In this document: positions 35,897 through 48,053 of the stretch, piece by piece
How the letters are laid out: each line of letters begins with the position of its first letter
Numbering within the stretch: the stretch's first letter is position 1
Origin: Neisseria perflava
GTDB taxonomy: Bacteria > Pseudomonadota > Gammaproteobacteria > Burkholderiales > Neisseriaceae
Length of the DNA stretch: 64,000 nt
Reading direction: 5' to 3'
Assembly: GCF_002863305.2 (NCBI RefSeq)
Contig: NZ_CP136962.1
Location: 1,612,001 to 1,676,000, forward strand
The notes under the pieces: model-generated
Database searches by the model: none
Told to the model about the DNA's origin: nothing
What the model saw: only the letters and a program-made list of their open reading frames with translations
Position numbers and translations under genes: made by a program

Positions 35897-36457
35897 TTAC
35901 GGCAGAATCTCAATTTCCGCGTTGTGTTTTACACTGCGGTAGAGTTCGTCGACTTCTTCGTCCGTTACCGCGATGCAGCCATTGGTCCAGTCTTTTTGCA
36001 GGTGTTTTTTGCCAATAAAACCCCAGCCGTTTTTCATGCCGTGGATTTTAATCAACCCGCCCGGGCTTTTGCCTTGTGCCGCTGCGTAGGCTTTATCGGC
36101 TTCGTTGGGATAGGAAACGCCGAGGTTTTTATGGTAGCCGCTGTTGGGATTACGCTCATTGATGCGGTATTTTCCTTCGGGCGTTTTGCCGTCGCCTTCA
36201 AACTGTTTATGCCCGACCGGTTGCTTGCCCAACGAAATGGGATAGGTTTTCAGCAGCCTGCCTTGCGAGTAGGCCGACATGGTGCGCTTGCTTTTATGCA
36301 CGACCAATCTGTCGATAACTGCATCTTCAGGTAACGGCGCTTCACTTGGCATAGTAACGGTTGTCATGGAACGAATCGGCGCGGCAAACCAAAACACCAA
36401 AGCGGCGACAGCCGAAAGCACGACTGCCGCCAAGCCGATTTTCAACCCGACTTTCAT
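35897..36457 (-). CDS. L,D-transpeptidase (YkuD family), membrane-anchored
   Basis: This 186-residue protein has an N-terminal signal anchor (about 5-27) and a YkuD domain (about 49-185). The catalytic motif is HGMKN followed by DWTNGCIAVTDEEVDELY, with the nucleophile cysteine in TNGC. Such enzymes form 3-3 crosslinks or attach proteins to peptidoglycan; which one here is unknown. It lies 13 bases after murD inside the dcw cluster, not a standard dcw position. Confidence 0.9.
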   Translation of the reverse strand: MKVGLKIGLAAVVLSAVAALVFWFAAPIRSMTTVTMPSEAPLPEDAVIDRLVVHKSKRTMSAYSQGRLLKTYPISLGKQPVGHKQFEGDGKTPEGKYRINERNPNSGYHKNLGVSYPNEADKAYAAAQGKSPGGLIKIHGMKNGWGFIGKKHLQKDWTNGCIAVTDEEVDELYRSVKHNAEIEILP

Positions 36458-36470
36458 CTTTCAGACGGCC

Positions 36471-37808
36471 TTACAAAGCTTTGAACGCTTCGATAAACAC
36501 TTCCGAACGGTGCGCATAGCCTTTGAACATATCGAAGCTCGCGCAGGCGGGGCTGAGCAGCACGATATCGCCCGCTTCGGCTTGAGCGTATGCCGTCTGA
36601 ACCGCTTCTTCCAAAGTAGCGCAGTCGGTTATATTCAGACCGCAGCCGTCCAAATCGCGGCAGATTTGCGGCGCATCGACACCGATCAGGAACACGCCTT
36701 TTGCCCTGCCGACAAGCGCGTCGCGCAGGGGCGTGAAGTCCTGCCCTTTGCCCATGCCGCCCAAAATCACGAAGAGCGGATTTTGCAAACCGGCAATCGC
36801 AGCGGCAGTCGCACCGACGTTCGTGCCTTTGCTGTCGTCAATAAATACCACGCCGTTTTTCTCGCCGATTTTTTCCACACGGTGCGGCAGGCCTTGGAAG
36901 GTTTTGACGTGTTCGAGCAATGCCTCGCGCGGCAAACCGATAGCCTCACACAAAGCGACGGCAGCCATAACGTTGGCGGCGTTGTGCAAGCCTTGCAGCA
37001 GGATGTCTTGCGTGGCAATCAAATCTTCATTGCCTTGTTTCAGTTGGCCTGTCTCGCGTTCCAACCAAAAATCGGCTTCGTGCTCCAACGAAAACCATTT
37101 CACATCGCGCCCGGCGCGCTTCATGGCACGACAGAACGTATCGTCTGCATTCAAAACCTGCACGCCATCGCCACGGAAAATCTTGTCCTTGGTATGCGCA
37201 TAGTCAAGCAAGTCGTCGTAGCGGTCGAGATGGTCTTCGGAGATGTTCAGCACCGTCGCCGCAGTTGGGCGCAGGCTTTCGGTGTTTTCCAGTTGGAAGC
37301 TGGAAAGCTCCAACACCCACACGTCCGCCTTTTTGCCTTCGCGCTGCAATTCCGCTTCCAAAACCGGCGTGCCGATATTGCCCGCGATGACAGTATCCAG
37401 CCCGCACTTGATGCAGAGATAGCCGACCAAGCTCGTTACCGTGGTTTTGCCGTTGCTGCCGGTAATTGCAATCACCTTGTCGCCGCGACGGTTCACAATG
37501 TCCGCCAGCAATTCGATGTCGCCCAACACGCGTCCGCCGTTTTGCTTGAACGCCTCAATATCCGGCTGCCGCTCGCTGATGCCGGGACTGAGCGCAAGAA
37601 TATCGAAACCATTATCCAACGCATCTTTCAGACGGCCTGTGTAAAACACCAGCCCGTCAAACATCTTACCAATTTGCGACACGCGCTCGGCTTTCAGCTC
37701 CGCATCATACGCAGCAACCTCTGCGCCGTTTTTGCGCAGATAGGCAATCATGGAAATACCCGTGCCACCAAGCCCGGCGACGAGGATTTTTTTATTTTGA
37801 AAAGTCAT
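36471..37808 (-). CDS. murD: UDP-N-acetylmuramoyl-L-alanine--D-glutamate ligase
   Basis: This 445-residue ligase adds D-glutamate to the stem. It has the N-terminal [15 protein letters not shown], the ATP loop [26 protein letters not shown] and the C-terminal [20 protein letters not shown], diagnostic of MurD. Standard dcw gene, here separated from mraY by about 5.9 kb of accessory genes. Confidence 0.97.
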
Positions 37809-37853
37809 TTTGGTTTTGTCCTATGGTTTTTCAGACGGCCTTTGAATAAGGAT

Positions 37854-38669
37854 TCAATATCCTTTCTGATCCAATTTTCGATAAGCATCACAACCTTGTT
37901 GTAGTCCGTTATCACAAGCCTTACCAAACCACTCTTTGGCAATCTTATAGTTCTGACGAACACCTTCTCCTTTGGCATACATCACACCAAAATTGTATTG
38001 AGCTTGCGCAAACCCTTGTTCTGCCGCCTTGCGATACCACTGCACCGCCTGTACAAGGTCTTGACGGACTCCTTGCCCATTAGCATACGCCACACCCAAA
38101 TTATATTGAGCATTAGCCAATCCTTGTTCTGCCGCCTTGCGATACCACTGCTCTGCCTGTACAAGGTCTTGACGGACTCCTTGCCCGTTGGTATACGCAA
38201 CACCCAAATTATATTGGGCTTGAGCATCCCCTTGTTCTGCCGCCTTGCGATACCACTGCACTGCCTGTGCATAGTCCTGACGGACTCCTTGCCCATTGTC
38301 GTACATCACACCCAAATTATATTGGGCTTCTGCAACCCCTTGTTCTGCTGCCTTGCGATACCACTGCACCGCCTGTACATCATCTTGACGGACTCCTTGC
38401 CCTTGGTCATACATCAAACCCAAATTATATTGGGCTTTTGCAACCCCTTGTTCCGCAGCCTTGCGATACCACTGCACTGCCTGTGCATAGTCTTGACGGA
38501 CTCCTTGCCCTTTTGCATACCTCAGACCCAAATTAAATTGAGCTTGAGCATTCCCTTGCTCTGCAGCTTGAAGCGTTTCCTTAAAATCCGGCACATTATC
38601 AGCCCAAACAGCCTGTGCTAAGCCTAAAGACAGCAGGGCTACCATTATTTTTTTTAATAATTTATTCAT
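37854..38669 (-). CDS. Sel1-like repeat protein, SLR copy 1 (six repeats)
   Basis: This 271-residue secreted protein has a signal peptide ending near AVWA (residue 23) and six 36-residue Sel1 repeats of the form AEQG-AQAQYNLGVMY-GQGVRQD-AVQWYRKA. It ends in a short tail with two cysteines (FGKACDNGLQQGCDAY) that could form a disulfide. SLR proteins are alpha-solenoid scaffolds for protein contacts. Meningococcal NMB0419, an SLR protein, lies at the equivalent dcw position and has been linked to host cell interaction. The ATG at 38669 starts the best signal peptide; an in-frame ATG lies four codons upstream. Confidence 0.9.
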   Translation of the reverse strand: MNKLLKKIMVALLSLGLAQAVWADNVPDFKETLQAAEQGNAQAQFNLGLRYAKGQGVRQDYAQAVQWYRKAAEQGVAKAQYNLGLMYDQGQGVRQDDVQAVQWYRKAAEQGVAEAQYNLGVMYDNGQGVRQDYAQAVQWYRKAAEQGDAQAQYNLGVAYTNGQGVRQDLVQAEQWYRKAAEQGLANAQYNLGVAYANGQGVRQDLVQAVQWYRKAAEQGFAQAQYNFGVMYAKGEGVRQNYKIAKEWFGKACDNGLQQGCDAYRKLDQKGY

Positions 38670-38741
38670 TCTAAAATCCATTTCTTTCAAATTATTGTTT
38701 CTGTTTTATCCTAGGGTTTCAGACGGCATTTCATAAACCGC

Positions 38742-39662
38742 TCAATAATCCGATTCTAAACGACGGTAACCGTCACATCCTAGCCGATTACCGTTATTAC
38801 ATGCCATACCGAGCCACGCTTTGGCAACTCTTAGGTTTTGGCGGACACCTTGTCCATTAGCATACATCGCACCCACATTATATTGGGCTTTGACATGACC
38901 TTGCATTGCTGCCTTTTCAATCCACTTCACTGCCTGCACATAGTTTTGACGGACTCCTTGTCCATTGGCATACATCACACCTAAATTATATTGGGCTTTG
39001 ACATCACCCTGCTTTGTAGCTTTACGATACCATTTAACCGCTTCGACATAGTCTTGGCGTACACCTTGTCCGTCGGTATACATCACACCTAAATTATATT
39101 GGGCTTGAGCATCACCCTGTTCTGCCGCTTTTCTATACCATTTTGCCGCTTCGACATAGTCTTGGATCATACCTTGCCCATTAGCATACATCACACCTAA
39201 ATTAAGTTGGGCTTCAGCACTTCCTTGTTCCGCTGCTTTATGGAACCATTTCGCCGCTTCAGCATAGTCTTGATGTACGCCTTGTCCGTTGACATACATT
39301 ACACCCAAATTGGATTGGGCAGCTGCATCCCCTTGTTCTGCTGCCTTGCGAAACCACCGCACTGCCTCTGCATAATCCTGGCGCACACCTTTTCCGTTGA
39401 CATACATCAACCCCAAATTAGATTGTGCTCGGGTATCTCCCTGTTTCGCTGCTTTACGATACCACTTGACCGCTTCAGCATAGTCTTGACGCACGCCTTG
39501 TCCATCAGCATACATTACACCCAAAATATATTGAGCAGGAACATAACCTTGTTCCGCCACCCACAAAATTTTCTGAACATCAGGAACCTCTTCCGCATAC
39601 ACTGTTTGTCCTATACCGAAAACCAGCAAGGCTACCATCATTTTTTTTAATAATTTATTCAT
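38742..39662 (-). CDS. Sel1-like repeat protein, SLR copy 2 (seven repeats)
   Basis: This 306-residue secreted protein has a signal peptide ending near TVYA and seven Sel1 repeats, many with EAVKWYRKA or EAAKWFHKA ends instead of the QAVQWYRKA of copy 1. The C-terminal tail differs most from the others (LGMACNNGNRLGCDGYRRL) but keeps both cysteines. The leader MNKLLKKMMVALL closely matches copies 1 and 3. The conserved spacer upstream is shared with copies 1, 3 and 4. Confidence 0.9.
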   Translation of the reverse strand: MNKLLKKMMVALLVFGIGQTVYAEEVPDVQKILWVAEQGYVPAQYILGVMYADGQGVRQDYAEAVKWYRKAAKQGDTRAQSNLGLMYVNGKGVRQDYAEAVRWFRKAAEQGDAAAQSNLGVMYVNGQGVHQDYAEAAKWFHKAAEQGSAEAQLNLGVMYANGQGMIQDYVEAAKWYRKAAEQGDAQAQYNLGVMYTDGQGVRQDYVEAVKWYRKATKQGDVKAQYNLGVMYANGQGVRQNYVQAVKWIEKAAMQGHVKAQYNVGAMYANGQGVRQNLRVAKAWLGMACNNGNRLGCDGYRRLESDY

Positions 39663-39727
39663 TTTAAAATCTATTACATTCAAATTATTATTTCTGTTTT
39701 ATCCAAGGGTTTCAGACGGCCTTAGAT

Positions 39728-40867
39728 TCAAAATTCTGTACCATCCAAGTGGCGATACCCCTCGCAGCCTTGCTGCAATCCATTCTGACATGCCTTACCA
39801 AACCACTCTTTGGCAAGATTATGATTTTGACGAATGCCTCGTCCGTGATAATACATTAACCCCAAATTATATTGAGCTTCAGCAAGCCCTTGTTCTGCCG
39901 CCTTGCGATACCACTGCACTACCTGTGTATCATCTTGACGGACTCCTTGCCCCTTGGCATACATTAAACCCAAATTATATTGAGCTTCGGCAACCCCTTG
40001 TTCTGCCGCCTTGCGATACCAATGTACTGCCTGCTTATCATCTTGACGGACTCCTTGCCCTTGAACATACATCACACCCAAATTTAATTGAGCCTTTGCA
40101 TCCCCTTGTTCCGCTGCCTTGCGATACCAATGCACTGCCTGCCTATCATCTTGACGAACTCCTTGTCCTTGGGCATACATCCAACCCAAATTATATTGAG
40201 CTTGTACATCTCCTTGTTCTGTCGCCTTACGATACCAATGCACTGCCTGCTTATCATCTTGACGGACTCCTTGACCTTGGGCATACATCACACCCAAATT
40301 ATATTGGGCACCCACTAAGCCTTGTTCTGCCGCCTTGCGATACCAATGCACTGCCTGTGCATCATCTTGACGGACGCCTCGCCCATTGTCATACATCACG
40401 CCCAAATTATATTGTGCATAAGCATCCCCTTGCTCTGCTGCCTTGTAAAACCACTGCACTGCTTGCGCATCATCTTGGCGGACTCCTTGTCCTTCTTCAT
40501 AAGCCACACCCAAATTATATTGGGCACCAGCTAAGCCTTGTTCTGCCGCCTTGTGATACCATTTGACTGCTTCGACATAGTCTTGACGGACTCCTATCCC
40601 ATCAGCATATTTTAAACCTAAATTATATTGGGCAACGGCATCCCCTTGTTCTGCTGCCTTACGATACCATTTGACTGCTTCGACATAGTCTTGACGGACT
40701 CCTTGTCCTTGAGTGTACATCAGACCCAAATTATATTGAGCAGGAGCATCCCCTTGTTTTGCAGCTTGAAGCGTTTCCTGAAAATCCGGCACATTATCCG
40801 CACAAACCTCCTGCACTAAGCACAAAGATAATAGGATTCTCATTATTTTTTTTAATAATTTATTCAT
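39728..40867 (-). CDS. Sel1-like repeat protein, SLR copy 3 (nine repeats)
   Basis: This 379-residue secreted protein has a signal peptide ending near EVCA and nine Sel1 repeats. Repeats 5-8 are nearly alike (GQGVRQDDKQAVHWYRKA), which suggests recent internal duplication. The tail FGKACQNGLQQGCEGYRHLD is nearly identical to that of copy 4. Its first mature residues (DNVPDFQETLQAA) match copy 1, so copies 1 and 3 share one end and copies 3 and 4 the other. Confidence 0.9.
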   Translation of the reverse strand: MNKLLKKIMRILLSLCLVQEVCADNVPDFQETLQAAKQGDAPAQYNLGLMYTQGQGVRQDYVEAVKWYRKAAEQGDAVAQYNLGLKYADGIGVRQDYVEAVKWYHKAAEQGLAGAQYNLGVAYEEGQGVRQDDAQAVQWFYKAAEQGDAYAQYNLGVMYDNGRGVRQDDAQAVHWYRKAAEQGLVGAQYNLGVMYAQGQGVRQDDKQAVHWYRKATEQGDVQAQYNLGWMYAQGQGVRQDDRQAVHWYRKAAEQGDAKAQLNLGVMYVQGQGVRQDDKQAVHWYRKAAEQGVAEAQYNLGLMYAKGQGVRQDDTQVVQWYRKAAEQGLAEAQYNLGLMYYHGRGIRQNHNLAKEWFGKACQNGLQQGCEGYRHLDGTEF

Positions 40868-40932
40868 TTTAAAATCCATTACATTCAAATTATTATTTCT
40901 GTTTTATCCTAGTTTTTCAGACGGCCTTTGAT

Positions 40933-42075
40933 TCAAAATTCTGCACCATCCAAGTGACGATACGCCTCGCAGCCTTGTTGCAATCCATTCTGACATGCCT
41001 TACCAAACCATTCCTTGGCAAGAGTATGATTTTGACGAATGCCTCGTCCGTAATAATACATCTCGCCCAAATTATATTGAGCATCAGCTAAGCCTTGTTC
41101 TGCTGCCTTATGGTACCACTGTGCTGCTTGTACGTAGTCTTGACGGTCTCCTTGCCCAGTGGCATACACTACACCCAAATTAAATTGAGCTTTGGCATTT
41201 CCTTGTTCTGCCGCCTTGCGATACCACTTCACAGCTTGTACGTAGTCTTGCTCAACTCCTTGGCCATTAGCATACATTACACCCACATTTAATTGCGCAA
41301 CCATATCACCTTGCTCTGCTGCCTTTCTGTACCACTCAATCGCCTGTACATAATCTTGTCTTACACCTTTTCCGCTAGCGTACATACCACCTAAATTATA
41401 TTGTGCATCTACATTCCCTTGCTCTGCTGCCTTGCGATACCATTCTATAGCCTGCGTGTAATCCTGACGTCCCCCTTTACCATTTGCATATGCTAAACCC
41501 AAATTATATTGACCTGCCGCATCCCCATGTTCTGCAGCTCTACGAAACCATTTTAACGCCTGTGCATAGTCTCGCTCGACACCTTGCCCATTAGCATACA
41601 GCAAACCTAGATTTAACTGAGCAGCTGTGTTTTCCTGATCTGCAGCCTTATTAAACCATTTTGCAGCTTGAGCATAGTCTTGATTAATACCTTGCCCATT
41701 CTGATACAGCATACCCAAATTATTTTGGGCTCCAGTATCACCCTGTTCGGCAGCCTTACGATACCATTCTGCCGCCTGTACATAATCTTGACCAACACCT
41801 TGCCCTAGCTGATACATTACACCCAAGTTAAATTGAGCTTTAGCATTCTCTTGCTCTGCTGCCTTACGAAACCACTGCACTGCTAGCCTGTTGTCTTGAC
41901 TAATACCCTGTCCATTCGCATACATTGCTCCAATACTTAATTGAGCTTCTGGATCTCCTTGCTCCGCAGCTCTCAACATATTCTTAAAATCCGGAATACT
42001 TTCAGCTAAAGCTGCCTGCCCTAACCCAAAGCAAGCCATCACGCCCATTATTATTTTTTTCATCGAAACCTTCAT
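40933..42075 (-). CDS. Sel1-like repeat protein, SLR copy 4 (nine repeats)
   Basis: This 380-residue secreted protein has a signal peptide ending near AALA and nine Sel1 repeats that are more diverged from each other than in copy 3 (AEQEN, ADQEN and AEHGD starts). The C-terminal tail is nearly the same as copy 3. The start at 42075 gives MKVSMKKII; an ATG four codons later is possible. Confidence 0.9.
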   Translation of the reverse strand: MKVSMKKIIMGVMACFGLGQAALAESIPDFKNMLRAAEQGDPEAQLSIGAMYANGQGISQDNRLAVQWFRKAAEQENAKAQFNLGVMYQLGQGVGQDYVQAAEWYRKAAEQGDTGAQNNLGMLYQNGQGINQDYAQAAKWFNKAADQENTAAQLNLGLLYANGQGVERDYAQALKWFRRAAEHGDAAGQYNLGLAYANGKGGRQDYTQAIEWYRKAAEQGNVDAQYNLGGMYASGKGVRQDYVQAIEWYRKAAEQGDMVAQLNVGVMYANGQGVEQDYVQAVKWYRKAAEQGNAKAQFNLGVVYATGQGDRQDYVQAAQWYHKAAEQGLADAQYNLGEMYYYGRGIRQNHTLAKEWFGKACQNGLQQGCEAYRHLDGAEF

Positions 42076-42145
42076 TCTAAAATCTATCACATTCCAATTA
42101 TTGTTTCTGTTTTATCCTAATTTTTCAGACGGCTTTTAAAAAGAT

Positions 42146-43063
42146 TCAATACCCTGTCTGATCCAATTTTTGATAAGCATCACAGCCCTGTTGCGATCCA
42201 TTATGGCATGCCTTGCTAAACCATTCTTTAGCAACAGATTGATTTTGAGGAACACCTTGTCCGTAATGATACATAACACCTAAATTATATTGGGCCTCAG
42301 AATTTCCTTGCTCCGCTGCTTTACGATACCAATATAAGGCCTGCTTATCATCTTGACGAACACCGAATCCATTATGATAAGCCACGCCAAGATCTGATTG
42401 AGCTTTGATATTTTCTTGATCTGCTGCACGATGTAGCCATAGCACCGCCTGTTTAAAATCTTTTTGCACGCCTAAACCATGCATATACCTTGTAGCCACA
42501 GTATATTGTGCTTGATTATCTCCCTGCTCCGCCGCCTTTCGATACCATTGGAACGCCTTCTCAGGAGCTTTACCGACACCTAATCCGTTATCATACATAA
42601 TGGCTAAATTGTATTGGGCATCAAGATACCCTTGTTCTGCCGCCTTTTCATACCATTGAGCTGCTTGATCATAATCTTGTTCAATGCCTTTACCAAAAAA
42701 ATAGATTGTTCCTAAATCATACTGAGCTTTAGCAAAGCCTTGTGCAGCAGCTTTTTGAAACCAATATTTGGCTTGCTCATAATCTTGAGCAACACCTTGT
42801 CCCTTATAATATAATCCCCCTAGATTGCTCTGCGCTTCAACATCCCCCTGTTCTGCCGCTCTACGGAACCAATGTTCTGCCTGTTTATAATCTTTGGTAG
42901 CCCCTTTCCCCAAGTAATACATCAAACCTAAATTAAATTGGGATGCAGCATTCCCTTGTTTGGCTTCTTGCTCTGTTTCTGCAAAATTTGGGATATCACT
43001 TGCATTAGCCATCTGTCCGAATCCAAACAAAGCAACTGCTATTCTTCTTAACCAATTTTTCAT
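42146..43063 (-). CDS. Sel1-like repeat protein, SLR copy 5 (seven repeats)
   Basis: This 305-residue secreted protein has a signal peptide ending near MANA (residue 21) and seven Sel1 repeats that are the most diverged of the set (for example DYEQAKYWFQKA and APEKAFQWYRKA). The tail FSKACHNGSQQGCDAYQKLD keeps the paired cysteines. As the first and most distinct copy in the reading direction it may be the oldest member of the array. Confidence 0.9.
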   Translation of the reverse strand: MKNWLRRIAVALFGFGQMANASDIPNFAETEQEAKQGNAASQFNLGLMYYLGKGATKDYKQAEHWFRRAAEQGDVEAQSNLGGLYYKGQGVAQDYEQAKYWFQKAAAQGFAKAQYDLGTIYFFGKGIEQDYDQAAQWYEKAAEQGYLDAQYNLAIMYDNGLGVGKAPEKAFQWYRKAAEQGDNQAQYTVATRYMHGLGVQKDFKQAVLWLHRAADQENIKAQSDLGVAYHNGFGVRQDDKQALYWYRKAAEQGNSEAQYNLGVMYHYGQGVPQNQSVAKEWFSKACHNGSQQGCDAYQKLDQTGY

Positions 43064-43684: not shown

Positions 43685-43713
43685 TGGCCGTCTGAAACTT
43701 TCAGACGGCCTTT
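43685..43713 (-). terminator. Inverted DUS pair after mraY
   Basis: TGGCCGTCTGAAA and its complement form a compact hairpin immediately after the mraY stop, so the globin and SLR genes downstream may be partly insulated. Confidence 0.6.
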
Positions 43714-46464: not shown

Positions 46465-47478
46465 TCACATAACCATCTGTAAATGTTTCATCATAGATTT
46501 AGGCGTAACAAAAGTTAAACCGTACATACTGCCTAATGCCACTGCCTGGCTTTCCTCTAAATCGGCAACCAGTATCACAAAGCGGTCATCCGGCAAATTC
46601 AATCGTTTTTTCAAGCGTACATATTTTTCAATGTCTCGTCTGAACTCCCCTGATTTACATTCCACCACAACCGGCTCTTTACCCATCGGCAAAAATACAA
46701 CATCTAACTCCTGTTTATCTTCATTGTCGAATTTGACTTTTACATTTCGAGCGCAAGAAAAAGCATAATCCTTACCTTTGTGTTTTGCTTCTTCAAGCAT
46801 TTTGCCCAGCGCAAACCATTCAAGCCAACCACCACAAAAAAAGTGCTTGATGGCAGTAGCACGTTGCAGATTCAAGCGAACAATTTTTTCCTGTTTCTGA
46901 TAGAAATACTTAGAAAACAGAGTATGGCTATAAAATTGTCGGCATAGATTATTCATTGTTTGCCCATCTTTTTGCGACATTTTGCCTATATCCAAACTAA
47001 TGCTTGTGTGGTTGTGACTATATGCCCAACTAATCTGCCCCAACATATTTTTAGTAATCTGATAATTGTTGCCTAATTTAATGGCAGCCTCATCAAAAAA
47101 ACCGCTCATATTGACCGCCTGAAAGTTAAACATCGGCACAATATTGGCTCGGGCAAACCATTGCCGTATTGGTTCATGTTGTTTTTCAGTAGCTAAAATG
47201 TCGGTTTCCGATAAATTGACGCCTGCCAGCAGATTATAATTTTGATTTTCCGAACCAGTATCTTGCTGTGTATTTTCCTCCCTGCCGTCTTCCTGTTGCT
47301 TCAAAGCCTGCAATTCCCGGTTCACTGAAAAATAACGTTCCAACAATTTACTGACAAAAAATAAAGTGTCGTAAACCTTAACCGGAGCCGTGCATTTTGG
47401 ACAAGCAATTTCACTCATTCCAGATTCGTAGTAATGCTCATTCATGCAACCGCATTTATTGCAGCGAAAAATACCCAT
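46465..47478 (-). CDS. Zinc-ribbon protein with Card1-like PD-(D/E)XK nuclease domain
   Basis: This 337-residue protein begins with a zinc ribbon (C6, C9, C26, C29), then an unassigned middle region rich in Gln and aromatic residues. The C-terminal domain has the order GGWLEW (E220), ELDVVF (D259) and VVVECKSGEF (E273, K275), the PD-(D/E)XK nuclease pattern, most like the DUF1887/Card1 (Can2) effectors of type III CRISPR systems. No CARF ligand-binding domain is evident, and no CRISPR array or Csm/Cmr genes are in the window. It lies between murF and the M23 gene and starts after AAGGGAATATT. Nuclease activity is inferred, not shown. Confidence 0.65.
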   Translation of the reverse strand: MGIFRCNKCGCMNEHYYESGMSEIACPKCTAPVKVYDTLFFVSKLLERYFSVNRELQALKQQEDGREENTQQDTGSENQNYNLLAGVNLSETDILATEKQHEPIRQWFARANIVPMFNFQAVNMSGFFDEAAIKLGNNYQITKNMLGQISWAYSHNHTSISLDIGKMSQKDGQTMNNLCRQFYSHTLFSKYFYQKQEKIVRLNLQRATAIKHFFCGGWLEWFALGKMLEEAKHKGKDYAFSCARNVKVKFDNEDKQELDVVFLPMGKEPVVVECKSGEFRRDIEKYVRLKKRLNLPDDRFVILVADLEESQAVALGSMYGLTFVTPKSMMKHLQMVM

Positions 47479-47531: not shown

Positions 47532-48053
47532 TTATCTTTCCTGATTAATCAGCGGATACGGATTTACCGCGCCGCTGGGCAGATACACGCCGTAATGCAG
47601 GTGGGCCGGTGTGGTTTTAGCGTTGCCGGTTTTACCGACATAGCCGATGACCTGCCCTTCTTTGACTCGCTCATACAGGCGGATACGGGCAAATTTATTC
47701 AGGTGGGCATAGTAATGCCACGCACCCGGCCCTTGAATACCAATAACTTTACCGCCCAATCGGTTGCGCCCGATTTTGGTTACGATGCCGGGCGTGGTAC
47801 TGCGTATCGGCGTATTTTTCTTAGCAAAAATATCCACACCTTCATGCCTGCGCCCCTGACTGCGCGCCGCGCCCCAAGTATCGTCAAAACGTTTGCCTTT
47901 AACAGGATTGGGCAGGCTTTGCTCGGCAGGAGGCTGTTGTGCCCTCAACTGCTCGATTTCGGCAGTAGGACGCGGAAGTTGTTTGGTTGTACAGCCTGCG
48001 AATAAAACTACGGCTGCACTGATTAATAAGGTTTTTGTCGGCATTTTCAGCAT
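47532..48053 (-). CDS. M23 family peptidase lipoprotein
   Basis: This protein of about 173 residues has a lipoprotein signal (VVLFAGC lipobox near residues 17-23) and one M23/LytM domain. The zinc ligands are present as HEGVD and HLHYGVY, so it should be an active endopeptidase or amidase activator rather than a degenerate factor. The ATG at 48053 has AGGAG nine bases upstream. It lies after murE in the dcw cluster, consistent with a role in septal peptidoglycan remodelling. Confidence 0.9.
   Translation of the reverse strand: MLKMPTKTLLISAAVVLFAGCTTKQLPRPTAEIEQLRAQQPPAEQSLPNPVKGKRFDDTWGAARSQGRRHEGVDIFAKKNTPIRSTTPGIVTKIGRNRLGGKVIGIQGPGAWHYYAHLNKFARIRLYERVKEGQVIGYVGKTGNAKTTPAHLHYGVYLPSGAVNPYPLINQER

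Follow-up and report, generated by a model that had tools for sequence, protein, structure and literature searches.

Tandem genes encoding exported Sel1-repeat (SLR) proteins are known from Haemophilus influenzae, where, according to the published description, the SlrV/Msf array near prfA comprises 0-5 genes per strain, whose products have a signal peptide, 36-residue repeats and, in almost all cases, two spaced C-terminal cysteines; a role in survival in macrophages was reported, and the proteins were proposed to be diversified to bind differing partners (PMC4792463). Another type of locus, the minimal mobile element, is described as combining conserved borders, whole-gene cassettes and homologous recombination, with no recombinase of its own (PMC3082526). 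In N. meningitidis the SLR protein NMB0419 has been linked, in the reports available, to epithelial interaction, Fur-regulon expression and intraepithelial replication (PMC8895040, PMC7327166, PMC5559437). In this study we analyzed a stretch of 64,000 nucleotides of the Neisseria perflava genome (contig NZ_CP136962.1, positions 1,612,001 to 1,676,000; "the window"), which contains five SLR genes arranged head to tail on the minus strand (37854-43063), with a truncated globin gene on one side and murD on the other. The genes were named slr1 to slr5, slr1 adjoining murD.

No paper on this array was found among openly licensed papers. The explanation that we favor, and consider reasonably probable, is that the array occupies a variable-cargo locus, similar in kind to minimal mobile elements, with lineage-specific cargo consisting of exported alpha-solenoid SLR proteins. 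Judging from the sequence comparisons, the assignment as a cassette-exchange hotspot with SLR cargo is well supported, and transformation is the likely driver of the exchange.

The slr array and the slot upstream of murD

The array is composed of slr5 (42146-43063, 305 aa), slr4 (40933-42090, 385 aa), slr3 (39728-40888, 386 aa), slr2 (38742-39683, 313 aa) and slr1 (37854-38690, 278 aa). It is bordered upstream by the globin gene (PF01152; 43116-43604) and downstream by murD (36471-37808), all located on the minus strand. The first-pass annotation of this DNA had described five tandem paralogs with 6, 7, 9, 9 and 7 repeats of 36 aa (slr1 to slr5, respectively), and this was borne out by a consensus repeat register as well as by the stretches matching the Sel1-repeat family of Pfam (PF08238), whose counts were the same in all five proteins (E-values 7e-75 to 7e-115). 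The leader and two-cysteine tail ascribed to each copy were also recovered: each N-terminus has, ahead of A-x-A or V-x-A, a leader that is first basic and then hydrophobic, and all five C-termini carry the motif ACxNGxxxGC, with two cysteines spaced by seven residues (CX7C). The products are thus probably exported, as far as a leader can be read from the protein sequence. Four of the five open reading frames (ORFs) were called from TTG or GTG, with an ATG a few codons downstream.

The GC content of the array (44%) is lower than that of mraY (52%) and murD (55%). Its longest exact direct repeat is only 41 nt, which makes collapse or invention of the array during assembly unlikely. The mean DNA identity among the repeats of one gene is 80% in slr1, 76% in slr3, 70% in slr2, 66% in slr4 and 59% in slr5. 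Near-identical repeats had been claimed for copy 3, which was overstated, since the best pair in slr3 is 85% identical at the nucleotide level and the closest pair anywhere in the array (88.9%) lies in slr1. The sharing of ends noted for copies 1/3 and 3/4 is real: the 5' ends of slr1 and slr3 are 85% identical and the 3' ends of slr3 and slr4 90.5%, compared to 26-76% for the remaining end pairs. The difference between these two relationships indicates that the starts and tails of the genes have separate histories.

To place the array in the context of the genus, the regions upstream of murD were scanned in 46 Neisseria genomes (one per species), all of which encode MurD. The number of SLR genes in this slot was found to range from 0 to 6, and that of repeats per gene from 1 to 13; some slots contain other genes. 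SLR genes lie directly upstream of murD in 13 of the 46 genomes, numbering six in G020, at least five in G027 (a lower bound based on five tails, owing to an N run in the array), four in G025, two in G001 and G036, and one in G038, G037, G040, G006, G014, G016, G021 and G024 (the last a partial gene, the contig being cut 475 bp upstream of murD). The extremes of repeat number are one (G021), two (G016, whose locus has sequence in common with a record named N. gonorrhoeae) and 13 (G025). The last gene before murD is slr1-like, i.e. most similar in both start and end, in G038 and G036, and has seven repeats in the former and nine in the latter, compared to six in the window. All 13 SLR-bearing genomes fall within the 17 whose MurD shares 96% or more identity with that of the window; no SLR gene was seen at murD in the other 29 genomes (MurD below 96%), of which G011 is not assessable, its contig ending about 100 bp upstream of murD. 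The genomes without a visible SLR gene at murD therefore number 33, G011 included. The SLR-bearing genomes are related to each other, and so this co-occurrence is no test of independence.

The SLR family was searched for beyond the slot with several queries. Whole-protein homology searches were swamped by the repeats (7992 of 7993 scored candidates matched). A profile of the last repeat and tail gave 28 matches reaching position 54 or beyond at E-values of 2.9e-20 or better, 27 of them at murD and one elsewhere (beside mnmG in G008); weaker matches were found elsewhere, e.g. in G034, G033, G028 and G003. Among 399 genomes of the order, at least four, all Neisseria, contained equally strong matches when the best 16 candidates per genome were scored, a procedure by which further matches may have been missed. 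The N-terminal part of slr1 gave 13 matches among 26 candidates, 12 of which were proteins of 163-167 aa with three repeats, and that of slr2 yielded no candidates. The G008 gene located away from murD (locus L186, 6386-10240) lies behind mnmG. An ORF behind this SLR gene ends with the same 40 residues as mnmG, as if a piece of mnmG had been duplicated upon insertion.

Cargo other than SLR genes was also identified. In G038, G015 and G008 the slot carries a cassette in which a lipoprotein-like gene is accompanied by one with a borderline match to Peptidase_M91 (25.5 bits in the G038 copy, cut-off 25) and by a membrane-protein-like gene, the three copies being 92.6-97.5% identical (L127, 3857-6744; counterparts L139 and L133); one of these three genomes has an SLR gene in the slot as well. 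The remaining slots hold various small genes or next to nothing. L114, L126, L153, L155 and L156 have in common a small gene of 96-119 aa, the L114 copy of which has a GIY-YIG domain. The slot thus has conserved borders, with either mraY or the globin gene on the upstream side, enclosing differing whole-gene cassettes; its SLR genes are often in tandem, differ between species in gene and repeat number, and encode proteins predicted from their leaders to be exported. In G008, G020, G025 and G027 mraY is displaced, being found far from murD or on a separate contig, and the cluster of division and cell wall genes (dcw) appears split.

Recombination, murD homogenisation and DNA uptake sequences

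Several traces of recombination were detected in the SLR cargo. The slr2 gene is 99.3% identical to gene b of G001 over its entire length (942 bp), compared to only 93-95% for murF, mraY, murD and the globin gene. The shared block starts in the leader and stops at a DNA uptake sequence (DUS), beyond which the window continues with slr1 and G001 with murD. Gene a of G036 is 96-100% identical to gene a of G001 for about 250 bp (approximately 70 of them leader) and then 98-100% identical to G001 gene b, a pattern read as a clear fusion of two SLR genes. The database protein P0121 differs from the G038 protein solely by lacking exactly 144 aa, i.e. four repeats. Collapse of short reads was considered as the source of this shortening, but the identity at the corresponding joint of the G038 gene amounts to only 22 nt, and the loss is therefore probably real. 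A bias of database or assembly is nevertheless possible, given that P0121 was compared as a protein and that the 12 N-terminal matches are of such even length. In P0128 an slr1-like start is joined to a tail resembling those of slr3 and slr4. The database protein P0131 has an SLR start of this family and four repeats, followed by an unrelated C-terminal part, for which the record lists PF12587. Genome G037 is close to the window in murF and mraY, yet it carries the cargo type of G006 and G040 with the AT form of the DUS (see below), indicative of a cargo swap. No recombinase was recognized among the window ORFs of the slot (ORF list and Pfam), and the mosaic edges, together with the murD pattern described below, are consistent with homologous recombination.

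For 17 of the 46 genomes, 11 of them distant from the window, the region was compared base by base. At fourfold degenerate sites, murD is 78-86% identical to that of the 11 distant genomes, as opposed to 47-55% for murF and 51-64% for mraY (seven genomes each), and 43-55% for ftsW and 50-55% for murG (11 genomes). Taken together, 13 genes of the region, including these four, show 31-68% identity (nine genomes), a range that omits two shadow ORFs running antisense to murD and ldt, and also the cargo rows, namely the globin gene, 46465-47478 (77 and 82%) and 47532-48053 (64%, one genome). In G002, the one control with ordinary divergence, murD is 52% identical. Since murD is similar at fourfold sites and the other genes are not, murD has moved between species. 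Along the gene the identity is flat; in the distant genomes it falls off on either side, unless the L,D-transpeptidase gene downstream is shared as well. This is the pattern that would be expected of a border co-imported with its cargo. A murD allele that is common across species, unlike its neighbors, has to be taken into account when this gene serves as a species marker.

Each of the five slr genes is followed by a DUS on the minus strand, located in the slr5/slr4 (42124-42133), slr4/slr3 (40916-40925), slr3/slr2 (39711-39720), slr2/slr1 (38718-38727) and slr1/murD (37830-37839) spacers. The one at the edge of the shared slr2 block is of the AT form (ATGCCGTCTGAA), although the window is dominated by the AG form, AGGCCGTCTGAA (61 copies versus 9 of the AT form), which we take to be AG-DUS. 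In 13 loci, window included, an exact DUS core was present on the gene strand in 25 of the 27 spacers behind SLR genes (those of G027 were omitted from the count, as the N run lies inside the array). The spacers of G020 and G025 contain the form AGGTCGTCTGAA, presumably the mucDUS dialect, which is also the commonest form in those loci. Of the two dialect names, both adopted from the same source, AG-DUS was reported there for N. subflava, N. flavescens and others (PMC3630211), and the dominant form of the window would accordingly point to a commensal like these. Among 22 other co-directional spacers of the window, defined by mechanical ORF calls, 12 contain any DUS and six have exactly one on the gene strand. 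DUS are thus usual in the genus and unusually regular behind SLR genes, duplication accounting for a part of this regularity.

Two neighboring loci may be mentioned. The L,D-transpeptidase gene (YkuD; 35897-36457), present in 7 of the 17 compared genomes (blastn), occupies another slot of variable content, which lies between murD and ftsW. The gene at 46465-47478, beside murF, has a sub-threshold match to a Card1-like endonuclease (24.7 bits, cut-off 26.4) and was found in two of the seven distant loci reaching that far. Its patchy distribution and its identity at fourfold sites (given above) suggest that it may be another exchanged cargo.

Proposed mechanism, encoded proteins and rival explanations

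In the mechanism that we propose, the unit of exchange would be a cassette of leader, SLR gene and DUS-bearing spacer. DNA of other cells would be taken up through competence, favored by the DUS, and would recombine through homology in murD, the spacers, the signal-peptide and tail sequences, and the 108-bp repeats. Whole genes could in this way be gained or lost, repeat number altered, 36 aa at a time, and one gene's start joined to the body of a different gene. As a conserved border, murD would be imported along with the cargo and would consequently become alike across species.

The AlphaFold2 model of slr1 is a regular solenoid with a mean predicted local distance difference test score (pLDDT) of 89.9 (92-98 in the repeats, below 50 in the leader), and a Foldseek search of solved structures with this model placed an Oxalobacter SLR protein, c5321, LpnE and LceB at the top, with HcpC lower. 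The CX7C cysteines probably form a disulfide that caps the solenoid. By analogy with the fold and with its relatives, the proteins may be periplasmic or released binding scaffolds, diversified for differing host or bacterial partners; contact with the host is plausible only through their relation to NMB0419 and H. influenzae msf. The ratio of nonsynonymous to synonymous substitution rates (dN/dS) was 0.18 for 33 of the 38 window repeats and 0.22 for 162 of 186 repeats from 10 loci (the last repeat of each gene was omitted, as were L137, L138, L142 and L143). No diversifying selection was found overall, the largest ratio of any repeat position to the mean synonymous rate being 1.04 among the 162 repeats. 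Variable residues cluster at positions including 6-8, 11, 15, 18, 19, 24, 28 and 32, and positions 10, 17, 20, 22 and 33 are invariant in the 33 inner window repeats.

The low dN/dS, and the fact that no position clearly exceeds the mean synonymous rate, would also be compatible with neutral amplification, i.e. tandem duplication and decay of one gene at a recombination-prone spot, yielding diversity without benefit. The related genes with only one or two repeats in G021 and G016, and the lack of such genes at murD in G008, G010, G015 and G023, could be explained in the same manner. However, all five window ORFs are intact, every tail has been retained, and the variable residues recur at fixed positions of the repeat while others stay constant, so we regard neutral amplification as unlikely, though deserving of consideration. 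A functional role in the assembly of the cell wall appears far less credible. The first-pass annotation had placed the array between mraY and murD and suggested scaffolds for cell wall enzymes; such scaffolds, for cell wall or division enzymes, could owe their place in the dcw cluster to co-regulation. Pfam agrees with the names given to murD, mraY, murF, ftsW and murG in the flanks. In favor of the proposal, murD does adjoin the array, the L,D-transpeptidase gene is close by, and SLR and tetratricopeptide repeat proteins with envelope roles are reported in other bacteria (PMC7327166). On the other hand, mraY is not a direct neighbor, being kept apart by the globin gene and by an inverted DUS pair behind mraY (43687-43709) that forms a strong, terminator-like stem-loop without a T-run (-21.1 kcal/mol, z -5.3), by which mraY ends ahead of the array. 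Moreover, in G020, G025 and G027 the array stays at murD even though mraY is displaced, as it is in G008, 33 of the 46 genomes have no SLR gene seen at murD (one of them a contig end), and the slot also carries unrelated genes. The scaffold proposal is therefore unsupported and very improbable, and the slr proteins are probably outside the murein machinery.

Alternatively, the array might represent a stockpile of orphan immunity proteins directed at phospholipase D (PLD) effectors of type VI secretion systems (T6SS), like the tandem SLR proteins PA5086-PA5088 of P. aeruginosa. In the sources available, both P. aeruginosa PldB and Klebsiella VgrG4 are described as having SLR immunity proteins, and in the Klebsiella case five SLR genes follow one another (PMC7108748, PMC13133936). 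A strain of N. subflava is reported to possess T6SS clusters that contain PLD effectors, along with duplicated immunity genes resembling PA5087 (PMC10210955). The slr1 protein matches PA5087 (5jkp) at 1.6e-12, yet its fold match to PA5086-5088 is poor (template modeling score of about 0.44) and ranks behind c5321, LpnE and HcpC. Of the 13 genomes that have SLR genes at murD, six encode TssB and seven (G001, G038, G014, G016, G021, G024 and G040) lack it, and the neighbors of the window array (globin, murD, L,D-transpeptidase and mraY) include no effector gene, although an orphan stockpile would need neither TssB nor an adjacent PLD effector. The sole PLD-linked gene examined, in G025, sits by a PLD-like gene and a DUF2345 end, which we take to be VgrG-like. 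It is of another type, having a lipobox and CX7C nowhere; hmmscan gave no Sel1 match at 0.001, and a single weak stretch was detected by the genome search (3.9e-4). Taken together, these data make an immunity stockpile improbable. Two and three tandem lipoprotein-like genes resembling the PLD-linked gene of L175 were found in L176 (6199-8151) and L177 (5426-8913), respectively, with no PLD gene recognized alongside; these are possible orphan immunity arrays.

Some observations also weigh against cassette exchange by transformation as we propose it. The dN/dS of 0.18 is purifying overall, unlike what strong diversifying selection would leave. In Neisseria a DUS in a spacer is common anyway, and related spacers inherit it by duplication, so that 25 of 27 does not represent 25 independent events. 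G008, G010, G015 and G023 share the murD type without an SLR gene at murD, which indicates a spread of murD untied to SLR cargo, and the globin border is less uniform, with 77% identity at fourfold sites in G010 and 56% in G020 and G025. Finally, recombination had been described as ongoing in the first-pass annotation. Its results are visible in gene number, repeat number, chimeras and the exchange of a cassette between species; the word "ongoing" itself rests on comparison between species, each represented by one genome.

We raise more tentatively the idea that the locus is an integron-like generator of diversity that operates without a recombinase, in which paralogs, each with its own uptake tag, are rewritten by transformation and murD serves as the homology anchor. 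If this is true, murD, which encodes a peptidoglycan enzyme, would have become uniform across species for no other reason than its position beside the cargo. What had looked like an unremarkable gene is, in Neisseria, one end of a series that runs from 0 to 6 cassettes of a single family, in which gain, fusion, shortening and transfer are all visible. The locus may be useful for measuring the effect of natural transformation on a gene family shared between species, and any acceleration due to the uptake tags in the spacers. If the proteins bind partners on host or rival cells, the array is a ready set of variants for the mapping of recognition.

Comparison with known systems

NMB0419 is also an SLR protein, encoded according to the reports by a single gene, in contrast to the five of the window; we assume that it occupies the same position as the array. 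PA5086-PA5088 of P. aeruginosa resemble the array in that several SLR proteins (there three) occur together, but those are described as linked to an effector, the fold of slr1 matches them poorly, and the one PLD-linked SLR gene seen in Neisseria is of another type. As in the minimal mobile elements described in Neisseria, conserved borders enclose differing whole-gene cassettes and no recombinase was recognized in the window slot, whereas the cargo at murD is often a tandem array of one family.

The closest counterpart, as far as can be judged from the published description and the SLR fold rather than from H. influenzae sequences, is SlrV/Msf. Both systems comprise tandem SLR genes with a leader, 36-aa repeats and two spaced C-terminal cysteines (in all five window genes), and they have in common varying repeat numbers, repeats that cluster across genes and a naturally transformable host. 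Unlike the described H. influenzae array, which lies near prfA, that of Neisseria is located at murD, has a DUS behind nearly every gene, shares a cassette between species and is bordered by a homogenised essential gene.

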